NCBI GenBank assembly: GCA_017416805.1
Contig: JAFQBB010000035.1
Span: forward strand, 1 to 38,419
DNA length: 38,419 nt
DNA from: Bacteroidaceae bacterium
Lineage (GTDB): Bacteria; Bacteroidota; Bacteroidia; Bacteroidales; Bacteroidaceae
Direction of reading: 5' to 3'
Part shown: piece by piece, positions 8,165-20,501 of the stretch
How positions within the stretch are numbered: position 1 is the first letter of the stretch
Layout: each line of letters opens with the position of its first letter
Translations under genes and position numbers: made by a program
Notes under the pieces: model-generated
What the model was told of the DNA's origin: nothing
Databases searched by the model: none
What the model saw: only the letters and a program-made list of their open reading frames with translations

Positions 8165-8710
8165 TTACTTTATTCCTGCTTTTGCCTTGACAAGGGCTGT
8201 AATATCAATACCACAATCCGCATTGATGAAAGGACATGCATTATTGTCCGTATTCAAAACAAATTGAAGGTTCAATTCCTGACCCACTTCACCAATGACA
8301 ACATTGAGATGTTCCACAACAGGAGCATTAAGTTCCGAACGAGCCTGCTTTATCAAATCTTTGATTTCATCCTTGAAATGAAGGCTCTTCTCCATCAATT
8401 CCTGCAATTCTTTCTGCCTTTTCCGCATGATATTGTCAGGAAACTCGTCCTGTCCCTCTATAAACTCTGCAAATTTGAGATTAAACTCACGGTCAGCACG
8501 AGCCAATTCTGCGTCATATTTCTCCTGCAATTTCTGCAAGGTTTCCTGTGCAGCCACATAATCCGGCATTTGCCTAATCACGGCCGAATAGCTCAAATAG
8601 CCGAAACGTGCCTGTGGCTGTATGGCGGAAGGAGCCACAGACAACGAATCTTGTGCCATTGTCATCAAGGGCAGAAAAAAGAAGAGCGCTATAATCAGTC
8701 TCTTACCCAT
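8165..8710 (-). CDS. Skp/OmpH family periplasmic chaperone, third copy
   Basis: A 181-residue exported protein (signal peptide MGKRLIIALFFFLPLMTMA) of the OmpH/Skp family, whose trimers hold unfolded outer-membrane proteins in the periplasm. The head resembles the other copies (RFGYLSYSAVIRQMPDY), followed by a long charged helical arm (TLQKLQEKYDAELARADREFNLKFAEF..QKELQELMEKSLHFKDEIKDLI) and a C-terminal strand region. It shares the final GIK with the next upstream copy (8717-9220), suggesting tandem duplication. It carries an extra segment after the signal peptide (DSLSVAPSAIQPQA). It lies 6 nt from the second copy and 18 nt before murI. Confidence 0.88.
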   Translation of the reverse strand: MGKRLIIALFFFLPLMTMAQDSLSVAPSAIQPQARFGYLSYSAVIRQMPDYVAAQETLQKLQEKYDAELARADREFNLKFAEFIEGQDEFPDNIMRKRQKELQELMEKSLHFKDEIKDLIKQARSELNAPVVEHLNVVIGEVGQELNLQFVLNTDNNACPFINADCGIDITALVKAKAGIK

Positions 8711-8716
8711 TTCTGA

Positions 8717-9220
8717 TTATTTTATACCCAGTTTTGCCTTTACTGTCTCTGTCACATCCACACTCAACGTTTCACTGATATAAGGAACACCGGCAGCTAC
8801 ATCCATGATATAGACATATCCTCCGGCAACACCCACTTCCTTAATGGCTGCCTTCAGTTTTTCACTGATAGCTCCCATCTTTTCCTGTGAAGCCTTTTCC
8901 ATGTGTTGTTGTCCTTCACGATAATACTGTTCCATACGGTTGTAAAGCTCTTGCAATTCAGCCTGACGACGCTCGGCTATATTAGCAGGCAAAGTGGCCT
9001 TTTGAGCTTCAAACTCTTCCCCTTTCTTGTTCAACTCATCCTGCATACGCTTGATTTCATCTTCGTATTGCTTCTGCAATGTCTGAATTTCGTTTTGTGA
9101 CGTAGTGTACTCAGGCATCAAAGGAATAATCGCTGCAGAGTTAACATGTCCGAACTTCTGTTGTGCACACAATCCCATGGGGATAAGTAGCATCATCGCT
9201 ACAATCAATTTCTTAAACAT
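8717..9220 (-). CDS. Skp/OmpH family periplasmic chaperone, second copy
   Basis: A 167-residue exported protein: signal peptide MFKKLIVAMMLLIPMGLCA, then QQKFGHVNSAAIIPLMPEYTTSQ, the conserved OmpH head. Residues ~45-115 form a charged helical hairpin (LQKQYEDEIKRMQDELNKKGEEFEAQK..RRQAELQELYNRMEQYY), the tentacle of the Skp trimer. The tail ends VDVTETVKAKLGIK. Known family role: chaperoning unfolded outer-membrane proteins to the Bam complex. bamA lies two genes upstream in the same run, which supports this. Spacing to the flanking copies is 38 and 6 nt. Confidence 0.9.
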   Translation of the reverse strand: MFKKLIVAMMLLIPMGLCAQQKFGHVNSAAIIPLMPEYTTSQNEIQTLQKQYEDEIKRMQDELNKKGEEFEAQKATLPANIAERRQAELQELYNRMEQYYREGQQHMEKASQEKMGAISEKLKAAIKEVGVAGGYVYIMDVAAGVPYISETLSVDVTETVKAKLGIK

Positions 9221-9258
9221 AATACTTTTTTTTATTTTGGTTATTAATTATAATTCAT

Positions 9259-9774
9259 TTATTCTGCATACCCCAATTTAGACAACACTTCATTGCTGAT
9301 ATCTACCTTTGGTGATGCAAAAATAATACTGGTATCAGATGCACGGTCAAGAATGAGAGAATACCCTTTAGAGTCTGCAATCTCCTTGACCGCATTATAG
9401 ATTTCATCCTGAATAGGAGCCATCAGGCTCTCACGTTTCTTGTAAAGTTCGCCATCAGGTGCAAAATATTTGCGTTTCAATTCACTGGCTTCTTTTTCCT
9501 TGGCCACAATCTCTTCTTCTTTCTTTGTTTTTTGTTCTTCAGAAAGAAATACTACCTCTGACTGATAATTCTTATAAAGAGTTTGTGCTTCCAAAGTCAA
9601 AGCCTCAACTTCTCCTTGCCAACGCTTGGAAATCTGGTTGAGTTGCTCATTGGCACGCTCATAAGCCGGTATATTCTTGAGAATATACTCCATATCCACC
9701 AAGGCAAATTTCTGTGCATTTGCCGTAACAACGGAAAAGCAAACCATAATTGCTAAAAACAAAAACTTCTTCAT
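9259..9774 (-). CDS. Skp/OmpH family periplasmic chaperone, first copy
   Basis: A 171-residue exported protein, first of three in tandem and 55 nt downstream of bamA. I set the start at 9774 (MKKFLFLAIMVCFSVVTANA, a clean signal peptide). The open frame runs to 9906, but that would bury the signal peptide and overlap bamA. Head motif QKFALVDMEYILKNIPAYERANEQLNQ; charged helical arm about 50-115 (EVEALTLEAQTLYKNYQSEV..EEIVAKEKEASELKRKYF). Its C-terminal part (SKGYSLILDRASDTSIIFASPKVDIS) differs most from the other two and looks closest to the standard family form. Confidence 0.9.
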   Translation of the reverse strand: MKKFLFLAIMVCFSVVTANAQKFALVDMEYILKNIPAYERANEQLNQISKRWQGEVEALTLEAQTLYKNYQSEVVFLSEEQKTKKEEEIVAKEKEASELKRKYFAPDGELYKKRESLMAPIQDEIYNAVKEIADSKGYSLILDRASDTSIIFASPKVDISNEVLSKLGYAE

Positions 9775-9829
9775 ACGCGCGTACATTATTATATATAATA
9801 TATAGTCACTATTCTTTTTTATCTCAAAC

Positions 9830-12487
9830 TTAGAACTCTTGTCCCAAAATGAAATGGAACTGGCTTCCGCCATATTGGCTGGATCCATAAATCTTATCAA
9901 ATCCATAAGCCCAATCGATACCCATCAATCCGACCATAGGAAGGAAAATACGCACACCGGCACCTGCCGAACGTTTCATATCAAAGGGGTTGAACTTCTT
10001 GATATCGGACCATGCATTTCCACCTTCCACAAATCCTAAGACATAGATATTGGTAGAACCTTCAAGCATCAATGGGTAGCGGAGTTCCAATCCCAAACGA
10101 GAATAGGCATAACCCTCATAGCCATAAGGAGTGAGCGAACCATTTTCATAACCACGCAAAGCTATGGTCTCGGTTGCATAACTGTATGAATAGCCACTCA
10201 TACCGTCTCCACCCATATAGAAGGTTTCGAAGGGTGAACGCTTATAGCGATTGTAATGACCCAGCAAACCAAATTCAACACGAGTCATCAACACCGGCGT
10301 CTTTCCTTTTGTAGAGAAAGCAGTATATGTCTTGCTCTTGAATTTCCACTTATGATATTCAACCCACTTATATTTACGATTCATATCGTTCTGATAATTG
10401 GGGTCGGAATAATTTTGGGCATAAGCAGAATAATCTACTCCATCCCATAACGAATAAGGAGGAGTAAATTGGGCAGAAAGAGAAAACTCAGCACCCGAAC
10501 GGGGGAAGATTGGATTATCTACCGAATTTCGTGCCAAAGTCAATTCCAAACTGATATTGTTGCTCTTTCCGTTGGTCACAGGGAAATATTGCCAATCTTT
10601 CAATACATAACGCTGATAAGAAAGTGCTGCAGTAAAGGTGAAATAATCATCCGGCCAACGCAAACGTTTACCAAACATTACCGACACACCATACATCTGC
10701 ACAGACTTATCGGGATCATAAAAAGACTCATAACTATTATAATAACCACTGTTATAGCTTCCGTAACCATACATGTAATTATAATAATTATTGTAATAAG
10801 CAGAGTTGTAATAGTTACTGCTCACATCAGTCTGTTTGGAATAAAAAGCTGAAACAGAGAAAGAATTCGGACGCTTTCCCCCAAACCAAGGGTCAAAGAA
10901 GGAAATGCTATAGGACTGATAATAATCTCCATTAGTCTGTCCGCTCAATGTCAGGGTCTGTCCATCACCTTGGGGAAGGATACCACGACGATTGTCACTC
11001 TTCTTGAACAGATTGGCCATTGAGAAGTTCGTAAACTTCAGACTGACACGACCAATGACACCTGTCTGTCCCCAACCTGCAGAAAGTTCAATCTGGTCAT
11101 TAGCCTTCGACTCCAATCCCCAATTGATATCCACTGTACCCGTTTCAGGATCGGGCTTGATATCAGGATTGATTGTTTCAGGATTGAAATGCCCCATTTG
11201 GGCAATATCACGGTATGAACGTTCAATGGCTTCTTTGCTGAAAAGATCACCCGGCTTGGTACGCAATTCACGACGAATCACCTCTTCATAAAGCCTGTCA
11301 TTACCAGCAATACGAACACGATTGATAGATGCCTGCGGTCCCTCTTGAATACGCATCTCTAAATCAATAGAGTCACCATCCACATTGACTTCAACGGGGT
11401 CGATCCGGAAAAATACATATCCGTTGTTCCAATAAAGATTTTGAATAGCATCTTCGTCAGAACTCAAGCGCTCATTCATCTTCTTCTGGTTATAGACATC
11501 CCCACGTTTCATGCGCAAATCATGGCTGAGCTTGTCAGAAGGATATACCGTATTACCCACCCACGATATATTTCGCAGATAGTATTTGTCTCCTTCTTCC
11601 AGATTCAGATAAATATCTACTGTACGCTCATCGTGAGCTACCACACTATCCGAAAGAATTTGTGCATCCCTATAACCCAATTCATTATATTTGTCAATGA
11701 TGAAGCCCTTGTCTTCTTCATACTTCTCTGTTATGAACTTCTTACCCCCTTTGAAGAAATTGCGGAAACGGTTAGCCCAGTTGCTCCGCTCACGGGTTTT
11801 CTTCATTGCTTTACGTATAGTTTTATCAGAAACTTCTTCATTACCATTGATATAGATTTTATTGATTTTTATTTTCTCTTTCTTGTCAATATCTATATCC
11901 ACAATCATTTGGTTAGCAGCTGATACATCATCACTTTGGCGGATATTAACTTCAGCATTCTTGAATCCTTTTTCATCAAAATAACGCTTGATGACAATCT
12001 TCGCCCTATCCACCATATTAGGAGTTATCTGACGACCTTTGACCATACCCAAACGTCCTTCCAAATCCTCTCGTTCTGACTTTTTAATTCCATGATAACG
12101 GATTTCAGAAATACGCGGACGTTCAGCCAAAGCTATGTTAAGATAGATTTTGTCACCCACAATACTATCTGCAGAAATATGTACATCAGAAAACAATCCG
12201 TGTTTCCAGTAACGCCGGGCTGCATTGGTTATATCATCACCTGGAACTTTTATATACTGTCCGACAGAAAGTCCTGAAAGTCCAATCAATACATAATCTT
12301 CATAGTTCTTGACACCACTTACAGTTATACCACCTATCTCATAGTTTCGTGGTGTTGACGAATAAAGGATAACAGGTTTTACCTGCTTTTCAGCAACCTG
12401 TTGGGCACGAAGCATTGTGGGGAACAATCCCCAACATATAGCCAAACAGGACAGTATCTGAAACCATATTGAAGGTATTCTTTTCAT
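9830..12487 (-). CDS. bamA: outer-membrane protein assembly factor BamA (Omp85)
   Basis: Inserts beta-barrel proteins into the outer membrane. The 885-residue product has a signal peptide ending near LRAQQ (28-30), then successive POTRA domains over about 48-440 (for example NYEIGGITVSGVKNYEDYVLIGLSG, IKINKIYINGNEEVSDKTIRKAM, INRVRIAGNDRLYEEVIRREL). A C-terminal Omp85 barrel spans ~465-885, with the lid-loop motif LRGYENGS (usual VRGF/IRGY) and terminal Phe (FHFILGQEF). A striking Tyr/Asn/Ser-rich stretch at 557-590 has 14 tyrosines in about 32 residues and is predicted to be an outer loop. It follows uppS by 11 nt and precedes three Skp-like chaperones. Confidence 0.96.
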   Translation of the reverse strand: MKRIPSIWFQILSCLAICWGLFPTMLRAQQVAEKQVKPVILYSSTPRNYEIGGITVSGVKNYEDYVLIGLSGLSVGQYIKVPGDDITNAARRYWKHGLFSDVHISADSIVGDKIYLNIALAERPRISEIRYHGIKKSEREDLEGRLGMVKGRQITPNMVDRAKIVIKRYFDEKGFKNAEVNIRQSDDVSAANQMIVDIDIDKKEKIKINKIYINGNEEVSDKTIRKAMKKTRERSNWANRFRNFFKGGKKFITEKYEEDKGFIIDKYNELGYRDAQILSDSVVAHDERTVDIYLNLEEGDKYYLRNISWVGNTVYPSDKLSHDLRMKRGDVYNQKKMNERLSSDEDAIQNLYWNNGYVFFRIDPVEVNVDGDSIDLEMRIQEGPQASINRVRIAGNDRLYEEVIRRELRTKPGDLFSKEAIERSYRDIAQMGHFNPETINPDIKPDPETGTVDINWGLESKANDQIELSAGWGQTGVIGRVSLKFTNFSMANLFKKSDNRRGILPQGDGQTLTLSGQTNGDYYQSYSISFFDPWFGGKRPNSFSVSAFYSKQTDVSSNYYNSAYYNNYYNYMYGYGSYNSGYYNSYESFYDPDKSVQMYGVSVMFGKRLRWPDDYFTFTAALSYQRYVLKDWQYFPVTNGKSNNISLELTLARNSVDNPIFPRSGAEFSLSAQFTPPYSLWDGVDYSAYAQNYSDPNYQNDMNRKYKWVEYHKWKFKSKTYTAFSTKGKTPVLMTRVEFGLLGHYNRYKRSPFETFYMGGDGMSGYSYSYATETIALRGYENGSLTPYGYEGYAYSRLGLELRYPLMLEGSTNIYVLGFVEGGNAWSDIKKFNPFDMKRSAGAGVRIFLPMVGLMGIDWAYGFDKIYGSSQYGGSQFHFILGQEF

Positions 12488-18127: not shown

Positions 18128-18655
18128 CTAAAAAAATCTTTTTGCAAATTCCCAAATAACCATACCGGCGGTTACTGAAATATTGAGTGAATGTTTCGTA
18201 CCAAACTGAGGAATCTCTATACAACCATCACACATATCAACAACTTCTTGCTTCACTCCTTTTACTTCGTTTCCAAAAACAATGGCATATTTTTTATTCT
18301 CTTCCAATTCTACATCCTGCAACATTGTACTTCCTTCTACTTGCTCAATTGAAAGCACAGTGTAACCTTCATCTTTAAGTTGGTTTACAGCATCGCGCGT
18401 ATCCTTATAATATATCCATGAAACAGAATCTTCTGCACCAAGGGCAGTCTTATGTATTTCCGGATGAGGGGGAGTGGCTGTAATTCCACAAAGATATATA
18501 GACTCTACCCGAAAAGCATCTGAAGTCCGAAATACTGAACCCACGTTGTGCAGACTCCTTACTTCATCCAACACTACGACTAAAGGAAGTTTCTCTGATT
18601 TCTTGAACTCTTCAGTACTTATTCTTTTTAATTCTGTTATATTCAACTTTCTCAT
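18128..18655 (-). CDS. TrmH/SpoU family RNA 2'-O-methyltransferase
   Basis: A 175-residue SPOUT-class methyltransferase using SAM, expected to methylate a ribose 2'-OH in tRNA or rRNA. Motif 1 is LDEVRSLHNVGSVFRTSDAF (about 30-49; the conserved Asn and Arg are present), motif 2 is YAIVFGNEVKGV and motif 3 is IPQFGTKHSLNISVTAGMVIWEF, which form the trefoil knot and SAM pocket. It is a minimal form lacking the N-terminal RNA-binding extension of RlmB. The exact target is not readable. A -7-like TAAGTTTG (complement of 18678-18685) lies just upstream, at the edge of the putative origin, without a clear -33 box. Confidence 0.92.
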   Translation of the reverse strand: MRKLNITELKRISTEEFKKSEKLPLVVVLDEVRSLHNVGSVFRTSDAFRVESIYLCGITATPPHPEIHKTALGAEDSVSWIYYKDTRDAVNQLKDEGYTVLSIEQVEGSTMLQDVELEENKKYAIVFGNEVKGVKQEVVDMCDGCIEIPQFGTKHSLNISVTAGMVIWEFAKRFF

Positions 18656-19123
18656 ACTACAAACTTATTTGCGAGTGCAAACTTACACAAAATAATCGGA
18701 ATATATTAACAGATTGTTGATAACTTGTGGAAATATGGTGAAGAATACAGATATAAAAAATGGATAAAATATTTTGTATTACGAATAAAAGAATTATAAG
18801 TCCATCTTTATCAATTGACCAAAATAAAAAGTGAGAAGTTAATAATTGGATATAAACATACTTTTCATCCGTTTTTTTATCTCCATATCACATAAAGTTC
18901 TTAACTTTGCCGACAATTAACAATATGTTGATAAATAAACAAACATAGCTCTGTTTCAATGGATAAGGTAAAAATAGATGTGAATAACTTTGTGGATTGT
19001 TGTGAAATAAATATTAATAACTTATCTGCCAAATAAAGAGAGAAAATATTATCCACACTATTAACAGGCTATTATCATCATCATAGATTTTTCTTATTTA
19101 AAATAAAAACTTATATAATAATT
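18656..19123. other. oriC: putative chromosomal replication origin (oriC)
   Basis: A 468-nt AT-rich gene-free gap between divergent genes, with a cluster of DnaA-box-like 9-mers (consensus TTATNCACA). There is an exact TTATCCACA at 19049-19057, and TGTGAATAA at 18979-18987 (exact on the minus strand). One mismatch: TGTTGATAA at 18715-18723 and 18926-18934. Two mismatches: TGTGGAAAT 18726-18734, TGTGGATTG 18991-18999, TGTGAAATA 19001-19009. Two-box modules at 18715-18734 and 18979-18999 resemble each other. The A/T-only-rich stretch at 19080-19120 could be the unwinding element. The + strand is C/A-rich left of here and G/T-rich right, as expected at an origin. No dnaA is in the window; that does not exclude an origin. 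TAACTTTG at 18902-18909 and 18985-18992 could be -7 boxes for nadA. Confidence 0.72.
19049..19057 (+). promoter_or_regulatory. exact DnaA box TTATCCACA
   Basis: It matches the strongest known DnaA-binding 9-mer exactly. It is oriented opposite to the other box-like sites in the gap and is the one nearest the AT-rich stretch before nadA, the usual position for the box beside the unwinding region. Confidence 0.75.
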
Positions 19124-20116
19124 ATGGATAAAAAAGATTGGTTGAAAAAGGGGTTTGTAGATGAATCTGTAGATAGCTCCATTGACTTGCGAAAGGAAAT
19201 AGATAGATTGCGTCATGAAAAGAATGCTGTCATTTTAGCACATTATTACCAATCTGGTGAATTGCAGGATATAGCCGATTATGTGGGCGACAGTCTGGCT
19301 CTGGCACAATGGGCTGCAAAAACAGATGCTGACATCATCGTCATGTGTGGTGTTCATTTTATGGGCGAAACTGCTAAAGTGCTTTGTCCTGATAAAAAGG
19401 TATTAGTTCCTGATTTGAATGCAGGTTGTTCGTTGGCTGACAGTTGTCCAGCTGAAGAGTTTGCCAAGTTTGTGGCTGAACATCCCGATTATACGGTCAT
19501 CTCTTATGTAAACACTACGGCTGCCGTCAAAGCTGTGACTGACGTGGTGGTGACCAGTACGAATGCACGTCAGATTGTAGAAAGCTTTCCGCATGACGAA
19601 AAGATTATATTTGGTCCTGACCGTAATTTGGGAGGATACATCAATGCTGTTACCGGACGTCAGATGCTGTTATGGGATGGTGCTTGCCATGTACACGAAC
19701 AGTTCTCTGTGCAGAAGATTATAGAATTGAAACAACAGTATCCTGATGCACAGGTGTTGGCTCATCCCGAATGTAAAGGTGCATTGGTGAAATTGGCTGA
19801 TGTGGTGGGTTCAACTGCCGCTTTATTAAAATATGCTGTTGGTAGCGACAATAAGAATTTTATTGTAGCAACTGAAAGTGGTATTCTGCACGAAATGCGT
19901 AAAAAGTGTCCTGAAAAGAATTTTATTCCTGCCCCTCCTGAGGATAGTACGTGTGCGTGCAATGAATGTAATTTTATGCGTTTGAATACATTAGAGAAAC
20001 TTTATAATACATTGAAATATGAATGGCCGGAAATAGAAGTTGACCGGGCTATTGCAGAAAAGGCTGTCCGCCCCATTCATCGTATGTTGGAAATATCTGC
20101 CGAATTAGGTTTATAA
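19124..20116 (+). CDS. nadA: quinolinate synthase A
   Basis: Condenses iminoaspartate with dihydroxyacetone phosphate to quinolinate in de novo NAD synthesis, using a [4Fe-4S] cluster. The 330-residue product shows the family motifs ILAHYYQSGELQDIADYVGDSLALAQ (37-62), MCGVHFMGETAKVL, PDLNAGCSLADSC (96-108), GPDRNLGGYI, WDGACHVHE (Cys188), AHPECKG (Cys217) and CACNEC (277-282). Cluster ligands are expected in GCSLADSC, GACHVHE and the CxCxxC segment. nadB and nadC, common partners elsewhere, are not adjacent. It is the first gene to the right of the putative oriC and points away from it. The coding strand is G/T-rich. Confidence 0.97.
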   Translation: MDKKDWLKKGFVDESVDSSIDLRKEIDRLRHEKNAVILAHYYQSGELQDIADYVGDSLALAQWAAKTDADIIVMCGVHFMGETAKVLCPDKKVLVPDLNAGCSLADSCPAEEFAKFVAEHPDYTVISYVNTTAAVKAVTDVVVTSTNARQIVESFPHDEKIIFGPDRNLGGYINAVTGRQMLLWDGACHVHEQFSVQKIIELKQQYPDAQVLAHPECKGALVKLADVVGSTAALLKYAVGSDNKNFIVATESGILHEMRKKCPEKNFIPAPPEDSTCACNECNFMRLNTLEKLYNTLKYEWPEIEVDRAIAEKAVRPIHRMLEISAELGL

Positions 20117-20150
20117 TTTTCAAACTTTATGATTTAATTCTGAAAATAAT

Positions 20151-20322
20151 GGGTCAGTCCGAAAAGTCGGTTGCAAATTATGCCTTCTCTGTCACCATGA
20201 GCTTGTCGAAGGGTCTCAGGGTACTGCAAAGGAAACTATAGACCGTCAGCAATGCTCCAAACTCAGGGTGACAAGAGACATCATATAAACAATCATATAT
20301 AACCGACTTTTCGGACTGGTCC
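20151..20322. mobile_element. 172-bp MITE-like element with terminal inverted repeats and flanking direct repeats
   Basis: The ends 20151-20172 and 20301-20322 are inverted repeats matching at 20 of 22 positions, with the inner 17 bp perfect (AGTCCGAAAAGTCGGTT). Immediately outside lie identical octamers AAAATAAT at 20143-20150 and 20323-20330, as expected for a target-site duplication. A second imperfect inverted pair sits inside (GTCACC..TGAG at ~20190-20202 and CTCAGGGTGAC at ~20262-20272). It carries the TCGAAGGGTCTCAGG phrase seen in widely dispersed bacterial repeats. There is no coding capacity, so any movement would need a transposase elsewhere. Confidence 0.7.
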
Positions 20323-20391
20323 AAAATAATTATAGCAGTTTATCGGACGCTTATAAATAGTATTATCGTATTAATATATAGTCTGAATAAC

Positions 20392-20501
20392 CTCTTCACG
20401 GCTGTGAAAGGATCTCTTCACATCTGTCAAGAGATCTCTTCACAGCCGTGAAGAGATGTTTTCACAACTGTGAAGAAATGTTTTCACAACTGTGAAGAGG
20501 T
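20392..20501. repeat. five tandem 22-bp palindromic units
   Basis: Units at 20392-20413, 20414-20435, 20436-20457, 20458-20479 and 20480-20501 are exactly 22 nt each. The pattern is (C/G)T(C/T)TTCACANCNGTGAAGAGAT; every unit is a near-perfect palindrome around TTCACA..TGTGAA. Units 4 and 5 differ at two positions. There are no spacers, so it is not CRISPR. It starts 66 nt past the peptidase stop (20567). Confidence 0.92.

Follow-up and report, generated by a model that had tools for sequence, protein, structure and literature searches.

The window analysed here comprises the entire contig C2 (38,419 bp) of a draft genome of 3.16 Mb in 64 contigs, whose named nearest relatives suggest that it falls within the order Bacteroidales. 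At its centre of interest lies an AT-rich gap, flanked by a SpoU/TrmH-family RNA methyltransferase gene and by nadA, the gene for quinolinate synthase, which are arranged divergently and both transcribed outward from it (Table 1). A preliminary description of this DNA had put the gap forward as a probable chromosomal replication origin that lies away from dnaA. The latter point is borne out by the position of dnaA (TIGR00362) on a separate contig, C40; adjacency to dnaA is not obligatory for oriC. The gap is indeed AT-rich, with a GC content of 0.24, and in its sequence composition corresponds to the AT-rich unwinding element expected beside the boxes of an origin. The A/T-only stretch also mentioned in the preliminary description calls for a small correction: such runs are short, with the longest spanning 16 nt.

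Two TAACTTTG sites in the gap are directed at nadA and fit the motif TAnnTTTG, the Bacteroidetes -7 element. This motif matches 47 times in the window versus 34 times expected by chance, which calls for caution with regard to both sites. An RNA leader or riboswitch in the gap was considered and rejected: at gathering thresholds, the sole Rfam match in the window is a tRNA at positions 231-301, and none falls in the gap.

Table 1. Coordinates of the gap, its flanking genes and its sequence elements (positions in the window).
Feature	Position	Strand	Basis or remark
SpoU/TrmH-family RNA methyltransferase gene, left neighbour	18128..18655	-	Pfam PF00588, E 1.5e-37
oriC region (proposed)	18656..19123	.	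468-nt AT-rich gap, methyltransferase gene to nadA
DnaA box TTATCAACA	18715..18723	-	sequence match
TAACTTTG	18902..18909	+	fits TAnnTTTG, directed at nadA
DnaA box TTATCAACA	18926..18934	-	sequence match
DnaA box TTATTCACA	18979..18987	-	1 mismatch to TTATCCACA, exact to TTATNCACA
TAACTTTG, second copy	18985..18992	+	directed at nadA; overlaps box at 18979
Consensus DnaA box TTATCCACA	19049..19057	+	first box of conserved core; 53.8-bit core match begins here
Weaker second box CTATTAACA	19058..19066	+	abuts first box; A16, C17 invariant in 57 selected copies
GC-rich spacer GGCT	19067..19070	+	36-nt core matrix
3-nt-periodic repeat ATT ATC ATC ATC AT, proposed variant DnaA-trio	19071..19084	+	core matrix
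AT-rich stretch past repeat, proposed unwinding start (putative role)	19085..19123	.	sequence
nadA, quinolinate synthase, right neighbour	19124..20116	+	Pfam PF02445, E 3.1e-124

DnaA boxes cluster in the gap

All four main DnaA boxes that the preliminary description had placed in the gap are present, accompanied by six further sites with two mismatches. As is expected of oriC, their clustering exceeds chance. At up to one mismatch, the gap contains four boxes, compared with a mean of 0.21 in dinucleotide shuffles, and none of 2000 shuffles reached this number. E. coli oriC likewise has DnaA boxes beside AT-rich DNA. Genome-wide, we counted exact copies of TTATCCACA, TTATCAACA and TTATTCACA only. 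These three variants occur at 152 sites in the 3.16-Mb draft, and the gap, with four of them, is the sole place in the draft genome that holds at least three within 500 bp; in simulations with uniform placement, four sites fell within 343 bp in 3 of 20,000 cases. The dnaA contig C40 carries only two isolated exact sites of these variants. Two variants are more abundant in the genome than their reversed controls (TTATCCACA, 51 versus 29; TTATCAACA, 74 versus 39), and TTATTCACA is without clear excess (27 versus 24).

The gap also contains a 19-nt direct repeat (18705-18723 and 18916-18934; ATTAACA..TGTTGATAA), whose copies are 84% identical and 211 nt apart. It holds two of the boxes, so that a DnaA box and its flank may form a larger unit.

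A conserved core at the right edge of the gap

A sharper element, absent from the preliminary description, is found at positions 19049-19084. In order, this core comprises a pair of directly adjoining boxes, a GC-rich spacer of 4 nt and a 3-nt-periodic repeat, followed by AT-rich DNA; T-rich and then A-rich DNA past the repeat recurs in relatives. We described it by a 36-nt matrix, which was refined on 78 distinct sequences and scored on this same training set, including the window. The score is at least 20 bits in 75 of the 78 copies, with the lowest two (L013 and L082) at background level, and in 62 of the 78 the core is found 73-99 nt ahead of the nadA match (-73 to -99). Adenine occupies every third column of the repeat (columns 23, 26, 29, 32 and 35), at frequencies of 0.97, 0.97, 0.96, 0.91 and 0.95 among the 78 copies. 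Positions A16, C17, A23, A26, A29 and A35 are invariant in 57 copies, a finding favoured by their selection from among those with at least 28 bits. When the window, itself a member of the training set, was scanned, the core scored 53.8 bits at 19049 and the next best site 10.5. In held-out scans of 800 kb each, it scored 46.1 bits in genome G022 (next best, 11.6) and 36.3 bits in G008 (next best, 11.1).

The core stays in place when its neighbour genes change

nadA was detected in 51 of 61 genomes, counting that of the window, and the best 80 named nadA loci were taken for comparison. The divergent order of methyltransferase gene, gap and nadA is represented by 78 gap rows, duplicates included, in which the gap usually measures 400-650 bp. 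The preliminary description had named loss of the box cluster among close relatives that share the gene order as an outcome speaking against an origin. Taken literally, this outcome occurs in 16 of the 78 gap rows, which are devoid of any box at up to one mismatch; the 15 distinct ones (L072 being a duplicate that was dropped) carry the core with weaker boxes at 34 bits or more, as members of the training set.

In three very close relatives (L004/L033, L005/L034 and L006), whose nadA is 89-90% identical, the methyltransferase gene is not adjacent and boxes before nadA are kept. Two of them have TTATCCACA on the plus strand at -79/-80 (window, -75) and minus-strand boxes near -215 (window, -198). 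In the third, minus-strand boxes are located at -203 and -213 and the core scores 41.1 bits, with no plus-strand box at up to one mismatch before nadA. The core is absent, and boxes are few, at the nadA loci of several other relatives, including Prevotella. With nadA elsewhere, the core is still found beside the methyltransferase gene in G029 (42.1 bits), G030 (33.2 bits) and G015 (22.7 bits) and, judged by coordinates, in G020 and G017 (the latter weak); scans of the nadA loci of G029 and G015 revealed no core. In G008, G003, G010 and G007, nadA is reoriented, with the core behind its end. The core is absent from the methyltransferase loci L114, L115 and L117, all three in relatives that have kept it beside nadA, and from the methyltransferase loci L127, L130, L133, L134, L138 and L142.

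R1, a sequence-only profile of the core, found matches in 26 of 40 genomes, that of the window included. The best match is located at most 1 kb from nadA and/or the methyltransferase gene in 24 of these 26; the other two lie elsewhere and are weak (E about 0.007-0.008), and a second match in G009 is also away from both genes. The 14 genomes without a match to R1 include the single-contig genome G019, and R1 misses G015 and G047, in which the core matrix scores 22.7 and 27.8 bits. Across the phylum, 37 of 296 genomes match: that of the window, two others from its family, 17 others from its class (15 from family f29, two from f27) and 17 from the rest of the phylum. In f29, which we guess to be Flavobacteriaceae, the matches are recurrent at 18-31 bits, as exemplified by CTATTAACA-AGCT-ATCATAACCACCAT followed by T-rich and then A-rich DNA. 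The value of 37 out of 296 is no prevalence figure, since at least six f29 genomes lack a match, six being counted among the 20 non-matching genomes listed, and since the f29 match L266 and several matches in the rest of the phylum look, by eye, unrelated to the core. Judged from these comparisons, the core recurs among Bacteroidales as well as in a second family of the class, and it stays put where nadA has moved. In G006, nadA and the core occur twice with identical scores (C29:40869-41855 and C30:15190-16176), probably as the result of an assembly duplication.

GC skew switches at the gap

A skew minimum falls in the gap: the cumulative G-C minimum of contig C2 lies at 18,697, a local result given that the genome is in 64 contigs. 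The cumulative skew climbs to the right of the gap, with a flat stretch until about 27 kb, and the skew is higher on the right than on the left in 43 of the 47 named loci that have 5 kb on each side. Divergent transcription also shifts the skew at divergent gene pairs, and the local skew is partly transcriptional.

Since the genome of the window is in pieces, four others with a chromosome-sized contig each were sampled for skew, over 400-800 kb per genome. Contiguity guided the choice of G022, from the same family, and of G008, a genome of the same genus in three contigs; G178 and G258, which belong to family f29 of the same class, were included for their R1 match, that of G258 being weak (20.3 bits); the single-contig f29 genomes with an R1 match G117, G163, G194 and G286 were left out. 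A step fit placed the skew origin at 1.52-1.54 Mb in G258 (core, 1.535 Mb), at 0.54 Mb in G008 (core, 0.578 Mb) and at 0.36 Mb in G022 (core, 0.435 Mb), where the core is thus 75 kb off the best fit and positions of 0.40 and 0.44 Mb fit nearly equally well. In G178, whose profile is noisy, the fitted origin at 1.18-1.26 Mb and the core at 1.344 Mb are 84-164 kb apart. In three of the four genomes, the core thus coincides with the fitted skew origin or lies close to it; in the fourth, the agreement is looser (combined p = 0.0009, using the furthest tied fit). dnaA opens the record in G022, G178 and G258 and is therefore away from the core there, and in the sampled part of G022 the skew does not change sign at dnaA (60-1451). 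An origin linked to dnaA was accordingly rejected, given the location of dnaA on C40, the constant sign of the skew at dnaA in G022 and a core that is not dnaA-adjacent. In G258 (L332), dnaA at the record start is close to the fitted skew terminus and hence almost opposite the origin core.

The core and the DnaA pocket compared with B. subtilis

The core resembles the basal unwinding system (BUS) of B. subtilis oriC (PMC8287927, PMC6669920, PMC10721633) in its succession of strong box, weaker box, GC-rich gap and trinucleotide repeat. As described in PMC8287927, a BUS has a DnaA box or tandem boxes no more than 16 bp from a trinucleotide repeat, with 3'-GAT-5' as the commonest trio; the upstream one of the tandem boxes is the stronger, the GC-rich gap averages 4 bp and the commonest spacer measures 13 bp. 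In the core, tandem boxes lie within 16 bp of the repeat, and the spacer between box and repeat (9 + 4 = 13 nt) has this commonest length. Counted from the first box, the 13-nt register reads 3'-TAA TAG TAG TAG-5' on the trio strand, opposite ATT ATC ATC ATC, and thus comprises at least three 3'-NAN-5' trios in the form of 3'-TAR-5' repeats; the 11-nt register reads 3'-GAT AAT AGT AGT-5'. Both registers fit the sequence. The two systems differ in the trio itself, which is 3'-GAT-5' in B. subtilis, whereas the repeat found here is ATY on the box strand and 3'-TAR-5' on the other, where GAT occurs just once, as the opening triplet in the 11-nt register.

A second difference concerns DnaA. In the B. 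subtilis protein, R202 and E228 hold the G of the trio, N187 and E183 the A and N196 the third base, and the properties of the trio-reading residues are reported to be generally maintained among DnaA homologues (PMC10721633). We read 30 Bacteroidales DnaAs, one from the window's own genome and 29 from other genomes, which were the top 30 among the 39 genomes in which a match was obtained. E183, N187, R202 and E228 are replaced in all of them, with V/T/I/L at position 187, I/M/L/F at 202 and T/V/A at 228, and N196 is kept in all 30. The f29 DnaAs (n = 10) keep E183 and have Q at 187, I at 202 and V at 228. Among 17 further DnaAs of the phylum, position 202 is never basic, and E228 and N187 are kept in four each. 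Taken together, none of the 57 Bacteroidota DnaAs examined has a basic residue at position 202, and 53 of them have lost E228. By comparison, position 202 is R or K and position 228 is E in the DnaAs of B. subtilis, T. maritima, A. aeolicus and E. coli; the E. coli protein has E183, Q187, K202 and E228. The pocket properties described as generally maintained in PMC10721633 are thus not maintained in the Bacteroidota DnaAs examined. As these share ancestry, the change may have happened just once; R202 is lost in a wider set than the genomes showing the repeat, which was seen in Bacteroidales and f29.

Discussion

Our comparisons suggest that positions 18656-19123 are the chromosomal replication origin, a reading to which we assign a probability of roughly 0.94. 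The proposal of the preliminary description is strengthened by a box cluster unique in the genome, a switch in skew and a core that remains constant as its neighbour genes change. The finding is nevertheless of a known kind, since origins away from dnaA are ordinary in Bacteroidetes, whose oriC is commonly far from dnaA (PMC4755523). The oriC predicted for Prevotella intermedia OMA14 and other Bacteroidetes is similar in its DnaA-box cluster, its GC-skew transition and its distance from dnaA; unlike the core reported here, the description in the available portion of PMC4755523 comes without flanking genes, an abutting box pair or a trio repeat. A PMC literature search joining DnaA-trio with Bacteroidetes, supplements not covered, returned no relevant paper. 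Bacteroidetes trios may already stand in the supplements of PMC8287927, which span nine phyla, or in DoriC. The core could provide a portable sequence rule for recognising origins in draft genomes of a gut-common phylum in which dnaA gives no guidance.

The boxes, their layout and conservation and their position at the skew switch can be read from the DNA, whereas the direction of the oligomer, its engagement with one strand and the opening step are modelled on B. subtilis. DnaA would bind the box cluster of the gap, with the abutting pair TTATCCACA-CTATTAACA at the right edge anchoring a DnaA-ATP oligomer. This oligomer would grow rightward across GGCT onto one strand of the repeat (19071-19084), such that the AT-rich DNA before nadA could open and the helicase be loaded there. 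The 3-nt repeat may represent the Bacteroidia version of the DnaA-trio, with a base preference other than 3'-GAT-5'. It is tempting to speculate, at somewhat below even odds, that Bacteroidia DnaA lost the polar pocket for 3'-GA-5' and gained a largely hydrophobic one, with the origin repeat, whose trio strand has a near-invariant thymine every third base, changing in step. If true, trio and pocket would have co-evolved, and one would expect that neither origins nor DnaAs could be exchanged between the two kinds. The core and its DnaA also offer natural pairs of initiator and origin with which to study the reading of single-stranded origin DNA by DnaA, a matter raised in PMC10721633 by the suggestion that homologues of DnaA could be able to recognise various sequences.

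Alternatively, the origin may be real but its repeat simply a degenerate version of the ordinary DnaA-trio, with pocket changes that leave the base preference unaltered, an explanation whose chances we consider a little below even. It would fit the first trio of the 11-nt register and the survey in PMC8287927, which permits any 3'-NAN-5' and identified candidate BUS sequences for 1755 out of 2070 origins. Moreover, PMC10721633 reports that some trio substitutions are tolerated and the architecture could vary. Against this explanation stand the same base at every third position in 91-97% of the 78 copies and the replacement of all four base-contacting residues, E183, N187, R202 and E228, in all 30 Bacteroidales DnaAs.

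It is very improbable that the boxes and the core are instead a DnaA-regulated nadA promoter or mRNA leader without origin function. Although the core closely precedes nadA in most loci and the TAnnTTTG matches point towards this gene, it stays beside the methyltransferase gene or behind the end of nadA in the nine genomes named above, the gap has no Rfam match and the skew switches there; a nadA leader is rejected because the core stays put once nadA leaves. Least credible of all is the notion that skew switch and boxes are by-products of two divergent genes set in AT-rich DNA, with the origin elsewhere, for instance at dnaA, which draws on the transcriptional share of the local skew and the draft state of the genome but is at odds with the unmatched box cluster, its absence from the shuffles, the two isolated sites on C40 and the unchanged sign of the G022 skew at dnaA.

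Other features of the window

Five tandem 22-nt near-palindromes (CTCTTCACAGCCGTGAAGAGAT type) at 20392-20501, about 1.3 kb to the right of the origin, were considered as an origin-linked site and rejected as a dispersed repeat, since similar stretches occur elsewhere in the genome, on contigs C3, C20, C23 (in part), C29, C32 and C63; a search with one regular expression found no arrays of at least three such palindromes in the other compared loci. An inverted repeat at 20150-20323, with 32-nt arms that are 81% complementary and 110 nt between them, resembles a small MITE-like element. The protein encoded at 13989-15320 matches NCBIfam BamI_Bacteroidota with 316.8 bits, under the cut-off of 370, and the reading frames at 9830-12487 and 8165-9906 look, by eye, like genes for BamA and three OmpH/Skp-like proteins.
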